From an uncultured Gammaproteobacteria bacterium (GTDB lineage Bacteria > Pseudomonadota > Gammaproteobacteria > SZUA-152), in assembly GCA_913009875.1 (NCBI GenBank), contig CAJVYS010000017.1, positions 1 to 40,602 of the forward strand: 40,602 nt of DNA, written 5' to 3'. This document shows positions 13,153 to 18,767 of the stretch, piece after piece. The translations under genes were made by a program, and so were the position numbers. Each line of letters begins with the position of its first letter. Positions within the stretch are counted from its first letter, which is position 1. The notes under the pieces were generated by a model. It did no database searches. It was not told where the DNA came from and worked only from the letters and a program-made list of their open reading frames with translations.

Positions 13153-13223
13153 ACGTAGGGCGGGTTCCACCCGCCGCGACGGAGTACGGTGCTGGTGCAT
13201 GGCGGGTGGAACCCGCCCTACGT
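13153..13223. repeat. Hairpin repeat family C at the trmL/gpsA junction
   Basis: Perfect arms of 23 bases (13153-13175 and 13201-13223, starting ACGTAGGGCGGGTTCCACCC) with a 25-base loop. The right arm contains the gpsA stop codon (TAG on the minus strand, 13218-13220). It sits between two convergent genes, where it could act as a two-way transcript end or 3' stabiliser, although there is no T-run. Confidence 0.88.
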
Positions 13224-14228
13224 CTCGGCCTTCTGCTCCCGGGTCAGCAGCGCGTGCACGGCCTCTTTGGGCGCACGCGCCTCGTACAGCACCGCGTGCA
13301 CCTGCTCGGTAATGGGCATCTCGACGCCCTGACTCAGGGCCAGGTCGTGCACCTCGCGCGCGGTCTGCACACCTTCCACCACTTGATCGATATCGGCCAG
13401 CGCAGCCTCCAGGGTGTTGCCACGACCCAGCGCCAAACCCAGGCGACGGTTGCGCGACTGGTCATCGGTGCAGGTCAGCACCAGATCACCCAGCCCGGCC
13501 AGACCCATGAAGGTCTCGTGCTGACCACCGAGGGCATCGCCGAGGCGCATAATTTCGGCCAGACCACGTGTAATCAGAGCGCTGCGGGCATTGGCGCCGA
13601 AGCCCAGGCCGTCGGAAATACCGGCGGCAATGGCGAGTACGTTTTTCACCGCCCCGCCCACTTCCACACCCGGCACATCCGAACTGGTGTAGGCGCGAAA
13701 AGTGTCGCTGTGCAGACGTTCGGCGACGAAGTGAGCATAATCCGCATCTTTCGAGGCCACGGTCAGTGCCGTCGGCAGGCCCACGGCCACCTCGCGGGCG
13801 AAGGTGGGGCCGGATACCACGGCCATGGTTTGCGTCTCGCCCAGTACTTCTTCCACCACCCGGTGCAACAGTTTGCCGGAGCCGGATTCCAGCCCCTTGG
13901 TGGCCCACATCAGGCGAGCATCGGTGCGCAGGTGCGGCTGCATGGCCAGGAGTACGGCGCGGAAGGCGTGACTGGGAACAACGACGAGGATGTCGCGCAC
14001 GTCCTGCACGGCGCCGGCCAGGTCATCACTGAGTTGCAGACTGTCCGGCAGCGGCACACCCGGCAGGTAGCGCGCGTTAACACGCTCCGCCTGCAGGCTG
14101 GCCATGTGTCGGGGGTCGTGTCCCCAGAGGGTGGCCGGACGCCCGCCGCGGGCCAGCTGGATAGCCAGGGCGGTGCCCCAGGAACCGGCACCGAGAACGG
14201 TAACGGGTGTCACGTTGATATCGGCCAA
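13218..14228 (-). CDS. gpsA: NAD(P)-dependent glycerol-3-phosphate dehydrogenase
   Basis: 336-aa cytosolic enzyme reducing dihydroxyacetone phosphate to sn-glycerol-3-phosphate for phospholipid synthesis. The Rossmann motif GAGSWG is at residues 13-18, with conserved blocks LWGHDPRH, LMWATKGLE, VSGPTFAREVA and the catalytic lysine block VGGAVKNVLAIAAGISDGLGFGANARSALITRG. The start lies 3 bases after secB's stop, so the two are probably one operon, as in E. coli. The stop codon falls within a hairpin repeat, suggesting the repeat trimmed or replaced the original 3' end. Confidence 0.96.
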   Translation of the reverse strand: MADINVTPVTVLGAGSWGTALAIQLARGGRPATLWGHDPRHMASLQAERVNARYLPGVPLPDSLQLSDDLAGAVQDVRDILVVVPSHAFRAVLLAMQPHLRTDARLMWATKGLESGSGKLLHRVVEEVLGETQTMAVVSGPTFAREVAVGLPTALTVASKDADYAHFVAERLHSDTFRAYTSSDVPGVEVGGAVKNVLAIAAGISDGLGFGANARSALITRGLAEIMRLGDALGGQHETFMGLAGLGDLVLTCTDDQSRNRRLGLALGRGNTLEAALADIDQVVEGVQTAREVHDLALSQGVEMPITEQVHAVLYEARAPKEAVHALLTREQKAET

Positions 14229-14231
14229 GGT

Positions 14232-14732
14232 CTAATGAACGGCGGTTTCGCCGTCACCCTGGGTTTGTGGGGTTTGTTGGCGCTGCAGATGTTCAGTGTA
14301 CATGGCGTCGAAATTCACCGGGCCCAGCAGCATCTGCGGGAAGCCGCCCTTGGCGACCAGGTCGGAAATGGCTTCGCGCGCATAGGGGAAGAGGATGTTG
14401 GGGCAATAGCTGCCCAGCATGTGGGCACGCTCTTCGTCGCTGAAACCAGCCACGGTGAACACGCCGGCCTGCTGCACTTCCACCAGATAGGCGGTCTTAT
14501 CACCCAGCTTGGCGGTGACAGTGACGGTCAGCACCACGTCGTGGACATTCTCGCCCAGGGCTTTGCCCGATGACTGCAGCTCGACGTTAACCGTGGGCTC
14601 CCACTTTTCGGTGAAAATAGCCGGGGAGTTGGGGGTTTCAAAGGAGATGTCTTTGAGGTAGATCTTTTGCAGGGCGAACTGCTGTTGCGACTGATCGCCC
14701 TGTGCGACGGCTTCTTGTTCTGGTTCTGACAT
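14232..14732 (-). CDS. secB: Protein-export chaperone SecB
   Basis: 166-aa cytosolic tetrameric chaperone that holds preproteins unfolded and hands them to SecA. The sequence FALQKIYLKDISFETPNSPAIF and the block AGFSDEERAHMLGSYCPNILFPYAREAISDLVAKGGFPQMLLGPVNFDAMY are the SecB core. A short acidic/Gln-rich N-terminus and a C-terminal TPQTQGDGE tail are normal. Gene order trxC - secB - gpsA follows; E. coli has grxC - secB - gpsA. A 120-base gap separates it from trxC. Confidence 0.97.
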   Translation of the reverse strand: MSEPEQEAVAQGDQSQQQFALQKIYLKDISFETPNSPAIFTEKWEPTVNVELQSSGKALGENVHDVVLTVTVTAKLGDKTAYLVEVQQAGVFTVAGFSDEERAHMLGSYCPNILFPYAREAISDLVAKGGFPQMLLGPVNFDAMYTEHLQRQQTPQTQGDGETAVH

Positions 14733-14852
14733 GGCGATAATTCCGAGTGCGGGGCCCGCGCGGGGCCGTTTCAGACGTGCGGGAAGTCTACTGGCTCACC
14801 AGCGAAATTGAAACCGGCGAGCCCGGTACTGTTCACCCGGCACACCTGTACC

Positions 14853-15287
14853 TCAGAGGTGTTGGCGTGCCCAGGCCAGCAGATTGCCCAGATCCAGAGC
14901 ACCGGACATGCGCGCCGCTTCCTGGCCGTTTTTGTAGAGAATGAGGGTGGGAATGCTACGAATGCCGAGCTGGGAGGAAAGCTGCTGCTCTTCTTCACTG
15001 TTGATTTTGATCAGCCGCACCTGCGGTTCGAGCTGCGGCGCGGCCTGCGCGAACACCGGCGCCATCATCTTGCACGGCCCGCACCAGGCGGCCCAAAAAT
15101 CCACCAGCAGGGGCAGATCACCCTTGCTCAGGTGGCGCTGGAAACGGGCGGTATTCAGAGCCAGCGGCTGGCCGGTGAAGAGGGGCCGGTGACAAACCCC
15201 GCAGTTGGGGCCGGCGCTCAGTTTTGCCTGCGGCACACGATTGATGCCGTCGCAGTGGGGACACACAATATGCAGGGAATCGGCCAT
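14853..15287 (-). CDS. trxC: Thioredoxin 2
   Basis: 144-aa thioredoxin with an N-terminal zinc ribbon: C9-x2-C12 (CPHC) and C29-x2-C32 (CGVC), then the WCGPC active site (C69, C72) and the cis-proline block RSIPTLIL. It reduces disulfides in the cytosol; in E. coli TrxC is induced by oxidative stress. The start at ATG 15287 is fixed by GGAGG (plus 15294-15298) 6 bases upstream; a frame open to 15371 adds 28 unrelated residues. Placed between a rhodanese-glutaredoxin gene and secB, it makes a three-gene thiol-redox group with the upstream ArsR-type regulator. Confidence 0.95.
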   Translation of the reverse strand: MADSLHIVCPHCDGINRVPQAKLSAGPNCGVCHRPLFTGQPLALNTARFQRHLSKGDLPLLVDFWAAWCGPCKMMAPVFAQAAPQLEPQVRLIKINSEEEQQLSSQLGIRSIPTLILYKNGQEAARMSGALDLGNLLAWARQHL

Positions 15288-15293
15288 GAATTT

Positions 15294-15298
15294 CCTCC
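15294..15298 (-). promoter_or_regulatory. Shine-Dalgarno site fixing the trxC start
   Basis: GGAGG on the minus strand, 6 bases upstream of ATG 15287. The position decides between this start and a longer open frame. Confidence 0.85.
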
Positions 15299-15410
15299 GG
15301 GTTGTGAATGCGATTACGTTAGGGAGCCGGTCGAAACCGTCATCCCTGTCCAGCTCCAGCGCAACAACCACAGCCGTCAGAGCAGTAAACGCCTACCCTG
15401 ACCACGCCAC

Positions 15411-16262
15411 TCACGCTTGACCTATCCCCAGCGCCTCATCCAGCTTGCCCTGCGCATCCAGGGCGTGAATGCCATCGCAGTCGCCGATGTGTTTGCCATC
15501 GACAAAGATCTGCGGCACGGAATCCGAGCCGGCTTTCTGCGTCATCTCCTGGCGCAGCTCGGGCTTTCCGCCAACGTCTATTTCAATAGTGGCAACACCC
15601 TTGTCTTTCAAGAGCTGGATGGCTCGTACACAAAAAGGACAGTGCGCAGCGGTGTAAATGGTGATCTCCGGGCTACGAGTGGTTTCTTCTGTTCGCTCTG
15701 TTTCTTCCGGCGGCGCTTGTTCATCGGCCGGCGTGTCATGCCCGATTGCTTTGACCCCTTCTTCCTTGGCCTCTTCCTCGGCGGCCTTCTTGTCCGTCAC
15801 CTTATCCGCAGGCTCGGCAGCGGACGGCTTCGGCGGTTTTCCCTTCTCCGTGGTCAACGGCATGTTGGCGCTCTGCCAGGCCATGATGCCGCCGGCGAGG
15901 TTGTGTACCTGTTCAAAACCCGCCTTTCTCAGGGTGCCCGCTGCCTGCGCAGAACGAGAGCCAGTGCGGCATACGATCACGATGGGAGAGTGCTTGTACG
16001 CCGCCAGCTGTGACAGGCTGCTGGATAACATGCCCAGCGGAACGTGCATGGAATTGATGATATGGCCACCCTGATATTCCTTGTCCGTACGCACATCCAG
16101 CACCAGGGCATTCTGGTGATTAATCAGCCGCAGGAGCTCCATAGGGCTCACGGGCCTGGAAACACCGGGACCGACGTAGGAACGAACCAGCATGAAGAGG
16201 ATGATGGCCAGGGCCAGAAGCAGGGGCCAGTTGGTGACGAAAAAAGTGCTTAATTGCTGCAT
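15411..16262 (-). CDS. Membrane-anchored rhodanese - glutaredoxin fusion (YibN-GrxC)
   Basis: 283-aa single polypeptide. A membrane segment (about residues 13-31, LLLALAIILFMLV) leads to a rhodanese domain (about 40-135) with canonical loop CRTGSR (C98), then a charged Lys/Glu/Pro-rich linker (about 136-197) and a glutaredoxin domain (about 198-283) with dithiol site CPFC (C208, C211), cis-proline block SVPQIF and the GSH-binding block IGDCDGIHAL. In E. coli these are two neighbouring genes, yibN and grxC, beside secB. I see no internal ribosome site or start at the domain boundary, so a fusion is the simplest reading. It would move sulfane sulfur or reduce glutathione disulfides at the membrane; that role is inferred. 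Confidence 0.9.
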   Translation of the reverse strand: MQQLSTFFVTNWPLLLALAIILFMLVRSYVGPGVSRPVSPMELLRLINHQNALVLDVRTDKEYQGGHIINSMHVPLGMLSSSLSQLAAYKHSPIVIVCRTGSRSAQAAGTLRKAGFEQVHNLAGGIMAWQSANMPLTTEKGKPPKPSAAEPADKVTDKKAAEEEAKEEGVKAIGHDTPADEQAPPEETERTEETTRSPEITIYTAAHCPFCVRAIQLLKDKGVATIEIDVGGKPELRQEMTQKAGSDSVPQIFVDGKHIGDCDGIHALDAQGKLDEALGIGQA

Positions 16263-16384
16263 GATATTTTTGAATCGCTTGAGTGGAAACTGGGCGGACG
16301 ATATAGCGGAAAGGTGGGAAACTCAAGCCACAGGCGTACCGCAGAGCGGTATCGCCGACGCCAAAGCGCCTATTATCGCCTCAG

Positions 16385-16406
16385 AGCGCCTACTTTTGGT
16401 GGCGCC
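16385..16406 (+). repeat. 22-base inverted repeat, left copy, flanking the arsR-type gene
   Basis: Perfect reverse complement of 16894-16915; it begins AGCGCCTACTTTTGG. The pair brackets the regulator gene 16472-16783. A 12-base core (AGTAGGCGCTTT) reappears at 27417-27428. It could be the ends of a gene-carrying element or a repeat-induced structure. Confidence 0.85.
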
Positions 16407-16471
16407 TGGACACGCTTGGAGGGCTCTTTAATCCGTCAATATTGCCTTGCCGGTTCAGGAGCCCGCTGGCA

Positions 16472-16783
16472 TTAATCGCCGGAACAAAAAACCTCGCGCA
16501 TCATGCTGATGAGACGCAGAGTTCGCGAATCACCTACGCGGTAATAGACACGGTTGGCGTCCTTGCGCGACATCAGGATGCCCTTGTCACGCAGAATGGC
16601 CAGATGTTGGGATATATTGCTCTGCGAGGTACCCACCATGCCGACGATGTCCTGCACACTGACCTCCTTACCACCCAGGGCACAGAGAATCTTCAGCCGC
16701 AAGGGGTGCGACATCGCCTTGATGGAACGCGATGCACGCTCGATATCTTCATCGCGGGTAATTAAATGTTCCGAGTCACTCAT
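16472..16783 (-). CDS. ArsR-family regulator with SqrR/BigR-like cysteine pair
   Basis: 103-aa winged-helix repressor. The core IKAMSHPLRLKILCAL, recognition helix TSQSNISQHLAILRDKGI and wing RKDANRVYYRV are typical ArsR/SmtB. Cysteines C34 and C100 are 66 residues apart, equal to the spacing of the persulfide-sensing pairs in SqrR (C41/C107) and BigR (C42/C108), and they sit in the same helices. It lacks an ArsR metal motif of the ELCVCD kind. I chose ATG 16783 (GGGGG 7 bases upstream; length fits SqrR); ATG 16846 would add 21 residues. It reads toward the rhodanese-glutaredoxin gene 209 bases downstream. Persulfide sensing is an inference. Confidence 0.87.
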   Translation of the reverse strand: MSDSEHLITRDEDIERASRSIKAMSHPLRLKILCALGGKEVSVQDIVGMVGTSQSNISQHLAILRDKGILMSRKDANRVYYRVGDSRTLRLISMMREVFCSGD

Positions 16784-16861
16784 AGCAAAACCCCCTGATT
16801 TGGCTGGCTCCAGCCCGGCACTTGAATTACTGATATCAGCGGACATACGCCGCTCTCCCCT

Positions 16862-16993
16862 GGAGGCTGTCGGACTTAGGTGACTGTAGCCAGGGCGCCA
16901 CCAAAAGTAGGCGCTTTTCTTAGGAACCTACTTTTATGCAGGCAGCGCGGGAGCAGTTGCCGTGTAGATTCACCCTAAGTCCGACAGTCTCCT
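16862..16993. mobile_element. MITE-like element with terminal inverted repeats
   Basis: About 132 bases bounded by imperfect inverted repeats GGAGGCTGTCGGACTTAGG (16862 on) and CCTAAGTCCGACAGTCTCC (to 16993). Inside lies a second hairpin AAAAGTAGG/CCTACTTTT and one arm of the 22-base repeat. There is no coding capacity. It lies just upstream of the arsR-type gene, between it and gpmI. The name MITE is structural; no transposase relative is visible. Confidence 0.6.
16894..16915 (-). repeat. 22-base inverted repeat, right copy
   Basis: Exact reverse complement of 16385-16406, located inside the MITE-like element upstream of the regulator gene. Confidence 0.85.
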
Positions 16994-16997
16994 AGCA

Positions 16998-17025
16998 ATA
17001 TTACCAAAGTAAAATACAGTAATAT
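16998..17025. promoter_or_regulatory. AT-rich dyad, possible operator
   Basis: ATATTAC and GTAATAT separated by 14 bases, directly beyond the right end of the MITE-like element, in the divergent region between the arsR-type gene and gpmI. ArsR-family repressors bind such AT-rich dyads, but symmetry outside the 7-base arms is poor. The remainder of 16847-17192 shows no clear promoter or gene. Confidence 0.25.
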
Positions 17026-17192
17026 ATGACTGCGTTAATCCAGAATAGTCCGAAACACTAATAATCAAAAGGTTTTTTATTGTCTGATCCGCCCGCTGGA
17101 TCGCCCTTCATGCTTTCCAGGCAAGGCGGAAATCGTTTAAAATTCCGCTCTTCTGCGCAAGTTGCGCAAGCAAAAGAAGATGATACGAATCC

Positions 17193-18767
17193 ATGTCCAC
17201 ACCTCCCTCCCCGATGATCGCCATCATTCTCGACGGCTGGGGCTATAGCGAAGATCCTGAAGCCAACGCCATCTACAGCGCACGCAAGCCGCAGTGGGAC
17301 AAGCTCTGGGCACGGCATCCGCACACCCTCATCAAGGGCTCCGGGGCGGAAGTCGGCCTGCCCAGCGGGCAGATGGGTAATTCCGAGGTCGGCCACCTGA
17401 ACCTGGGCGCCGGGCGTGTGGTGTATCAGGAATTCACCCGCGTCAGCCGCGCCATCCGCACCGGTTCGTTCTTTACCAATCTGACCTTGACCAATGCCGT
17501 CGATCAGGCCATCGAGAATGACAGGGCCCTGCACATCCTCGGCCTGCTGTCAGACGGCGGCGTACACAGCCATGAAGAACACATCCAGGCCATGGTCCGC
17601 CTGGCGGTGGAGCGCGGCGCCAAGCGCGTCTACCTGCACGCCTTCCTCGACGGCCGCGACACGCCGCCGAAGAGTGCCGAAACCTATATCGCCAACATGC
17701 AGAAAATATTCGATGAATTGGGCGGCGGGCGTTTTGCCTCCATCATCGGGCGCTATTACGCCATGGATCGCGACCACCGCTGGCCACGCATTCAGGCGGC
17801 CTACGACCTCATCACCCAGGGCAAGTCCAAGTACCGGGCCCGGGATGCACTGGGCGCATTGCAGGCCGCCTATGAGCGCGGTGAAAGTGATGAATTCGTC
17901 CTCGCCACGGCCATCGTGCCCGAGGGTGAAAACCCCGTCACCATTGAAGATGGCGACGTGATGGTGTTCATGAACTACCGTTCCGACCGCGCGCGCCAGA
18001 TCACCCGTCCCTTTATCGAAACAGACTTCAACTGCTTCGAACGCGCCGCCAAACCAACGCTGGGAGCCTTTATCAGTCTCACCGAATACAGCGCCAACTT
18101 CGACGTGCCCGTAGCCTTCCCGGCCGAGCGGTTGAAAAACGTCTTCGGTGAATACATCGCCGAACAGGGCCTGCGCCAGCTGCGCATCGCCGAGACGGAG
18201 AAATACGCCCACGTCACCTTCTTCTTCAACGGTGGCCGTGAAGAACCCTTCGAGGGCGAAGACCGCATCCTCGTCCCCTCGCCCAACGTCGCCACCTATG
18301 ACGAACAGCCGGAGATGAGTGCGCCCGAACTCACCGACAAGCTGATCACCGCCATCGAAAGCGGCAAGTACGACATCATCATCTGCAACTACGCGAATCC
18401 GGATATGGTTGGACACACCGGCAAGTTCGATGCAACGGTGAAGGCCATTGAGGCCCTGGACGGCTGCCTGGGCCGGGTCATCGAGGCCTTGCAAAAGGTG
18501 GGCGGCGAGGCGCTGATCACCGCCGACCACGGCAACGCCGAACGCATGGCCGACGCGGAAACCGATCAGCCACACACCGCCCACACCAACAACCCGGTGC
18601 CGCTGATCTACGTCGGCCGCCCGGCACGGCTTGAGGAGCATGGCTCCCTGTGCGATGTCGCCCCCACCCTGCTGCACCTGATGGGCCTGGAGATCCCGCC
18701 GGAGATGGGCGGCCACTCACTGGTGATGCTCGAATCCGAGCGGAATGCCAGCGGCGAAGAAAACTGA
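17193..18767 (+). CDS. gpmI: 2,3-bisphosphoglycerate-independent phosphoglycerate mutase
   Basis: 524-aa manganese enzyme of the alkaline-phosphatase superfamily interconverting 3- and 2-phosphoglycerate. ILDGWG gives the first metal ligand (D14); [17 protein letters not shown] carries the phosphoserine nucleophile S64; HDGRD-like [27 protein letters not shown] and TADHGNAE complete the metal and substrate sites. Length is normal. The gene heads a plus-strand run with envC 71 bases downstream, matching E. coli gpmM - envC - yibQ order. The start at 17193 is the first ATG of the conserved frame; the ribosome site is weak. Confidence 0.96.

Follow-up and report, generated by a model that had tools for sequence, protein, structure and literature searches.

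Pairs of an ArsR-type sensor and a rhodanese are already known. In E. coli, the sulfide-responsive repressor YgaV is cotranscribed with the membrane rhodanese YgaP and is autoregulated (PMC9774250), and rhd genes have been placed near such ArsR-type regulators in general (PMC12423496). In published members of the RSS-sensing cluster a sulfur bridge forms between equivalent cysteines (PMC12423496). The sensing of inorganic sulfur compounds by sulfur oxidisers has been described as little known (PMC10451225). A second membrane rhodanese of E. coli, YibN, was listed as an orphan with no reported activity as of 2023 (PMC10215317) and has been identified as a partner of YidC (PMC12282094).

The window analysed here is a stretch of 40,602 nucleotides from an uncultured gammaproteobacterium of the SZUA-152 lineage (contig CAJVYS010000017.1), in which the following features concern us:

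13218..14228, minus strand: gpsA, conserved downstream neighbour
14232..14732, minus strand: secB, conserved downstream neighbour
14853..15287, minus strand: thioredoxin 2 (TrxC), with zinc-ribbon cysteines and WCGPC
15411..16262, minus strand: YibN-type membrane rhodanese with a glutaredoxin 3 domain (yibN-grxC fusion), 283 aa
16472..16783, minus strand: ArsR-family regulator (SqrR/BigR/YgaV/HlyU group), 103 aa when counted from the conserved start
16862..16992, no strand assigned: MITE-like repeat whose ends form 19-nt inverted repeats, separating the predicted operator from the regulator gene
17004..17026, minus strand: predicted operator/promoter of the regulator, TATATTACTGTATTTTACTTTGG, matching the class-wide element tatATTATTGTATAATG
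17193..18767, plus strand: gpmI, divergent neighbour

Along the minus strand the order is regulator, fusion, trxC, secB and gpsA, with gpmI divergent. Open reading frames, Pfam and NCBIfam agree that the ArsR regulator, the rhodanese-glutaredoxin fusion and thioredoxin 2 are three genuine genes on that strand. The initial annotation had described this row, with a regulator that it called SqrR-like, and had placed it between gpmI and secB; the placement is borne out by gpmI, divergent at 17193 on the plus strand, and by secB-gpsA downstream. A longer ArsR open reading frame reaches 16846; since relatives of the regulator have the common start MS[DE]SEHLITRDEDI, and some of them lack any start codon farther upstream, we take 16783 as the best start, which agrees with the end coordinate implied by the initial annotation. 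TrxC starts at the ATG at 15287, not at the GTG at 15371. An Rfam search of 14000-18000 returned zero matches, which rules out a known RNA element in that interval.

The 283-residue fusion frame matches the Pfam models Rhodanese (1.5e-22) and Glutaredoxin (1.7e-20), and opens with a hydrophobic helix at its N terminus, followed by a single rhodanese domain, a linker of low complexity and a Grx3 domain bearing CPFC. An N-terminal membrane helix (recognised by inspection), a single rhodanese domain and a position upstream of secB-gpsA are the marks of YibN. The rhodanese loop reads CRTGSRS, with Cys98 at the first loop position, and as a loop of the CxxGxRS type it is predicted to be active. The glutaredoxin 3 domain scores 92.1 bits on TIGR02181 (cut-off 90), carries CPFC and lies under the stricter PRK10638 cut-off of 129; TrxC scores 144.4 bits on NF008229 (cut-off 125) and has both the zinc ribbon (PF21352) and WCGPC. 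The initial annotation had the trio replacing the yibN-grxC segment. That is wrong, since the fusion has both the architecture of YibN and its place upstream of secB-gpsA, and is itself yibN fused to grxC; read from its sequence, the locus is yibN fused to grxC, with trxC inserted and a regulator in front. Within the window's family, 21/23 loci carry the fused frame. Six fused frames were found in the wider locus set, from the same family where their origin could be matched, and none was seen there outside it. In this family the fusion is often followed by a further glutaredoxin gene that stands on its own (L022-L026, L028, L030-L034).

The regulator matches the ArsR HTH_5 model of Pfam (E 7.8e-12). 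Its top-ranked relatives in a phmmer search of the PDB are SqrR (1.5e-16), YgaV, BigR and HlyU, and its AlphaFold model (pLDDT 85), a predicted ArsR winged-helix fold, finds HlyU, BigR, NolR, YgaV and SqrR. Its only cysteines, Cys55 and Cys121 (124-aa numbering), lie 66 residues apart and align with the sensing pair of SqrR; both are kept in 66/66 families. The label SqrR-like is thus well chosen: no solved relative is closer than SqrR, YgaV, BigR and HlyU, and neither signalling cysteine has been lost. The sole class member seen with an altered C-terminal cysteine (L169, reading VFV) has no secB found nearby. The regulator shares about 39-40% identity with SqrR and YgaV (39% with SqrR; 39.8% over 88 residues with YgaV) and 30% with BigR, whereas the listed class members of its group match the window protein at about 65-94% identity. 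On the NCBIfam BigR equivalog NF040642 it reaches 69.4 bits against a cut-off of 155, and we therefore do not call it BigR. In view of the gap in identity and the missed cut-off, the regulator is best placed in an orthologous group of its own inside the RSS-sensing cluster.

In a class-wide sample of 369 genomes, a regulator ortholog (threshold E<=1e-30) was found in 175/369, nearly always in single copy. The order gpmI / ArsR-YibN-Grx-TrxC-SecB is kept in all genomes of the genus with a long enough contig and in almost all of the family. We then considered 110 loci, made up of the 30 highest-ranking class matches together with 80 named public contigs (including Thiohalobacter, Thiogranum, Thiothrix, Sedimenticola, Thiodiazotropha, Thiohalocapsa and Competibacteraceae), and YibN follows the regulator with a single exception, at a contig end; secB-gpsA lies downstream in nearly all. 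Among sampled loci of lower score YibN follows in 20/20, once past a 6-kb insertion (L173:5294-11368, where about 6 kb of other DNA separates regulator and yibN). With one genome per family, YibN lies downstream of the regulator on the same strand in 65/66, at a median gap of 119 bases between matched domains. Since the same gene order recurs across genus, family and class, the arrangement is more than chance, and a strain-specific assembly is ruled out; the search for the neighbourhood in other genomes that the initial annotation had proposed thus finds the regulator-YibN order far beyond the strain, and its refuting condition of no conservation outside the strain clearly does not hold. The accessory genes behave differently. 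Glutaredoxin is present at the locus in 40/65 regulator-bearing families versus 29/58 others, which is not significant, and TrxC in 24/65 versus 1/58 (p 5e-7), all these counts being lower bounds as some loci are clipped by contig ends or by the stretch fetched. The regulator and YibN are the conserved core, and Grx and TrxC are optional. Conservation of the whole module is ruled out, and the "self-contained" unit of sensor, transferase and reductants that had been proposed is not supported, given these frequencies and a fusion limited to one family.

The presence of the regulator is associated with the state of the rhodanese loop. We compared YibN from regulator-bearing families with YibN at the yib locus of families without a regulator ortholog, where no regulator was found at any of the yib loci. 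The first loop residue is Cys in 65/65 families with the regulator and in 47/58 without (p 1.5e-4). The full loop, C..G.RS, is found in 55/65 versus 7/58 (odds ratio 40), with a p of 8e-17 that is optimistic, the motif having been chosen after a first look at overlapping data; 40 of the regulator-bearing families were fetched after that choice. Co-occurrence of this kind is confounded by shared ancestry. On a tree of SecB, GpmI and GpsA, the regulator switches state about 20 times, and among 20 independent pairs the state of the loop agrees with that of the regulator in about 15, runs counter to it in about 0 and is tied in 5 (sign p about 1e-4), a test that uses a poorly resolved best tree with few well-supported branches; limited to the well-supported branches, it leaves one usable pair. 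The association is also seen within genomes with dsr/sox (p 0.04) and within other genomes (p 0.01). These comparisons suggest that the active site of YibN is usually degraded where the regulator is missing. The yib locus of E. coli is without the regulator; its YibN has the loop cysteine at a non-canonical position (PMC12282094), and thiosulfate gave no increase in sulfane sulfur when yibN was expressed (PMC10215317).

The regulator is also associated with sulfur oxidation. It is present in 114/119 dsrA genomes and 131/153 soxB genomes; of the 175 genomes with the regulator, 143 carry dsrA or soxB, and the genome from which the window comes carries both. When each family is counted once, dsrA is found in 52/75 with the regulator versus 2/82 without (p 9e-21), and independent pairs for dsrA and the regulator, on the same weakly supported tree, agree in about 15 cases and disagree in 0.6. 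There are 32 regulator genomes with neither dsrA nor soxB, so the module is not strictly a part of sulfur oxidation. Five dsrA genomes have no regulator match at E<=1e-30 (G092, G138, G247, G339 and G350); some have close relatives with the regulator, so an effect of threshold or assembly is possible. One of them, G138, still has an intact YibN loop.

Upstream of the regulator lies a palindromic element, ATTAT-TGT-ATAAT, that is nearly single-copy per genome. The dyad ATTAT-N3-ATAAT occurs there in 14/58 families against at most 4 in shuffles, and a position matrix with the consensus tatATTATTGTATAATGtTtT reaches p<=0.02 in 70% of 57 families, the window included, under leave-one-out. At <=1 mismatch the element was found in 9/10 genomes searched, in one or two copies each; in the nine matching genomes it sits at the regulator every time, with two extra sites in total. 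By eye, the extra element in L285 adjoins genes seemingly unrelated to sulfur. Within the genus of the window the site has diverged to TATTACTGTATTTTACTTTGGTAATA, a genus-level dyad TATTAC-N14-GTAATA spans 16999-17024, and the window's 26-mer is unique in its own genome at <=3 mismatches. TATAAT lies in the right half of the element; promoter and operator therefore overlap or cannot be told apart, and the element's conservation may be due in part to this -10-like overlap. A predicted operator that is almost single-copy points to narrow autoregulation; a master regulator of sulfur genes is not supported, given the copy number, the L285 site and the uniqueness of the window's 26-mer. The 131-nt MITE-like repeat at 16862-16992 (19-nt inverted ends, hairpin z-score -5.9) is absent from the sister genome G003. 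Its core 20-mer occurs at 24 places in the genome at <=3 mismatches, and one of these, an inverted copy, lies at 16385-16406, between the regulator and yibN-grxC. The repeat may affect expression in the window's genome and is outside the conserved system.

The gene order, conserved residues, cis element and co-occurrence described above are direct observations. We consider it probable that they belong to an autoregulated sulfane-sulfur response operon, in which the regulator acts as repressor of a membrane-rhodanese operon. The ligand, the repression, the operon transcription and the sulfur transfers we infer, the sensing of sulfane sulfur by homology and co-occurrence. An ArsR-type dimer would bind the palindrome overlapping its own promoter and repress arsR-yibN(-grxC-trxC), with transcription possibly continuing into secB-gpsA. 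A rise in cytoplasmic persulfide or polysulfide would, by analogy with SqrR and SoxR, form a sulfur bridge between Cys55 and Cys121; the bridged regulator would leave the DNA, and more membrane-anchored rhodanese would be made. As far as domain function can tell, YibN would then load sulfane sulfur on Cys98 at the inner membrane face, and the fused glutaredoxin and TrxC would reduce the persulfide or pass it onward. In sulfur oxidisers, sulfur passing between the membrane side and the cytoplasmic Dsr pathway would be buffered or routed by the operon, which would also shield thiols. Two findings on E. coli, whose locus has no such regulator, speak against this reading: sulfane sulfur did not rise when yibN was expressed (PMC10215317), and YibN is a partner of YidC (PMC12282094). 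Its purpose may be detoxification, buffering or feeding of the Dsr pathway, between which we do not decide; the earlier suggestion of persulfide detoxification is not supported, since the trafficking of sulfur for energy metabolism would fit the observations equally.

A different reading is that the regulator is a general thiol-redox switch, in which peroxide, disulfide or nitrosative stress forms a cysteine disulfide that derepresses the rhodanese and a Grx/Trx repair set, sulfur oxidation being a mere correlate. It would account for the Grx and TrxC neighbours and has precedents in the ArsR-type RexT, which senses H2O2 and controls thioredoxin (PMC8960804), and in BigR, which makes a disulfide (PMC9774250). 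We hold it unlikely, since the rhodanese is constant while Grx and TrxC are optional, the association with dsrA/soxB and with an intact rhodanese loop is strong, and the vicinal disulfide of RexT is not present in the window regulator.

Relatives of the regulator outside the class bear on the sulfane-sulfur operon, both for and against, and on a further reading. Of ten examined, about 55% identical, nine immediately precede a rhodanese whose loop reads C[RQ][ST]G.RS and which has, where its start is visible, an N-terminal hydrophobic stretch. Their neighbours, where examined, are xerC and threonine synthase, not secB, so the regulator-rhodanese pair is separable from the yib locus. Cys55 is absent in 10/10 (L298-L307), which instead have cysteines within the first helix and ahead of the last one. 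The rhodanese is kept though Cys55 is gone; that the pairing survives loss of the canonical dithiol counts against the sulfane-sulfur reading. One relative without Cys55 (L300:2940-3834) lies beside a thioredoxin-like gene and efflux-operon-like genes, with no rhodanese. A role in envelope biogenesis, where YibN would serve YidC/SecB-dependent membrane protein insertion and the regulator would tune the operon to membrane or metabolic state, is harder still to credit. It can draw on the single E. coli operon of yibN, grxC, secB and gpsA, on the binding of YibN to YidC (PMC12282094) and on the presence of secB-gpsA downstream in nearly all loci, yet an intact loop goes with the regulator, a coupling for which a non-catalytic YibN would have no use, and the out-of-class pair is found away from secB. 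Finally, despite the ArsR family and a match to the metalloregulator subfamily model NF033788, a metal- or metalloid-responsive ArsR/SmtB repressor is very improbable, and we reject metal sensing on its absent ligand motifs: sequence inspection finds neither an Alpha3N CxC nor an alpha5 ligand set, the last helix is not His-rich, the only two cysteines are 66 residues apart, and the neighbours are not metal transporters.

Returning to the sulfane-sulfur operon, a broader and more tentative idea, which we regard as possible at best, is that a sensor group undescribed in the literature searched, near-universal with gammaproteobacterial Dsr-type sulfur oxidation, gates YibN at the SecB/YidC export locus and so wires sulfane-sulfur supply to membrane-protein biogenesis, E. 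coli YibN being a relic after loss of the sensor. From the comparison YibN acquires a partner, a probable signal and an ancestral role open to testing, and the dsr-bearing Gammaproteobacteria acquire a candidate sulfur sensor that is nearly universal among them and has a single operator. The correlation of an intact active site with the sensor allows a prediction of the lineages whose YibN still handles sulfur. In the main texts of open-licence papers we found no description of yibN with ArsR, or of a rhodanese with glutaredoxin and secB, and none of the regulator group, its tie to yibN or the loop correlation.

Among described systems, the BigR operon of Xylella and Acinetobacter likewise has a two-cysteine ArsR-type repressor, there of sulfide-detoxification genes, but the window regulator differs from BigR in its equivalog score (69.4 vs 155 bits), its 30% identity and its targets. 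SqrR of R. capsulatus and SoxR/sHdrR of H. denitrificans share the fold, the cysteine pair and the link to sulfur oxidation (PMC10451225, PMC12423496); however, they control sqr, sox or shdr operons, whereas the predicted operator of the window's group is found essentially only at its own yibN operon. In E. coli ygaV-ygaP, too, a two-cysteine SqrR/BigR-type repressor lies directly upstream of a membrane rhodanese gene. That pair is at another locus and without Grx/TrxC, YgaP is anchored C-terminally (PMC10215317) and YibN N-terminally, and YgaV is about 40% identical to the window regulator, against about 65% or more across the class for listed members of the regulator's own group. The E. coli yibN-grxC-secB-gpsA operon shares the downstream order and the architecture of YibN; E. 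coli lacks the regulator, whereas the window has yibN and grxC fused and trxC inserted.
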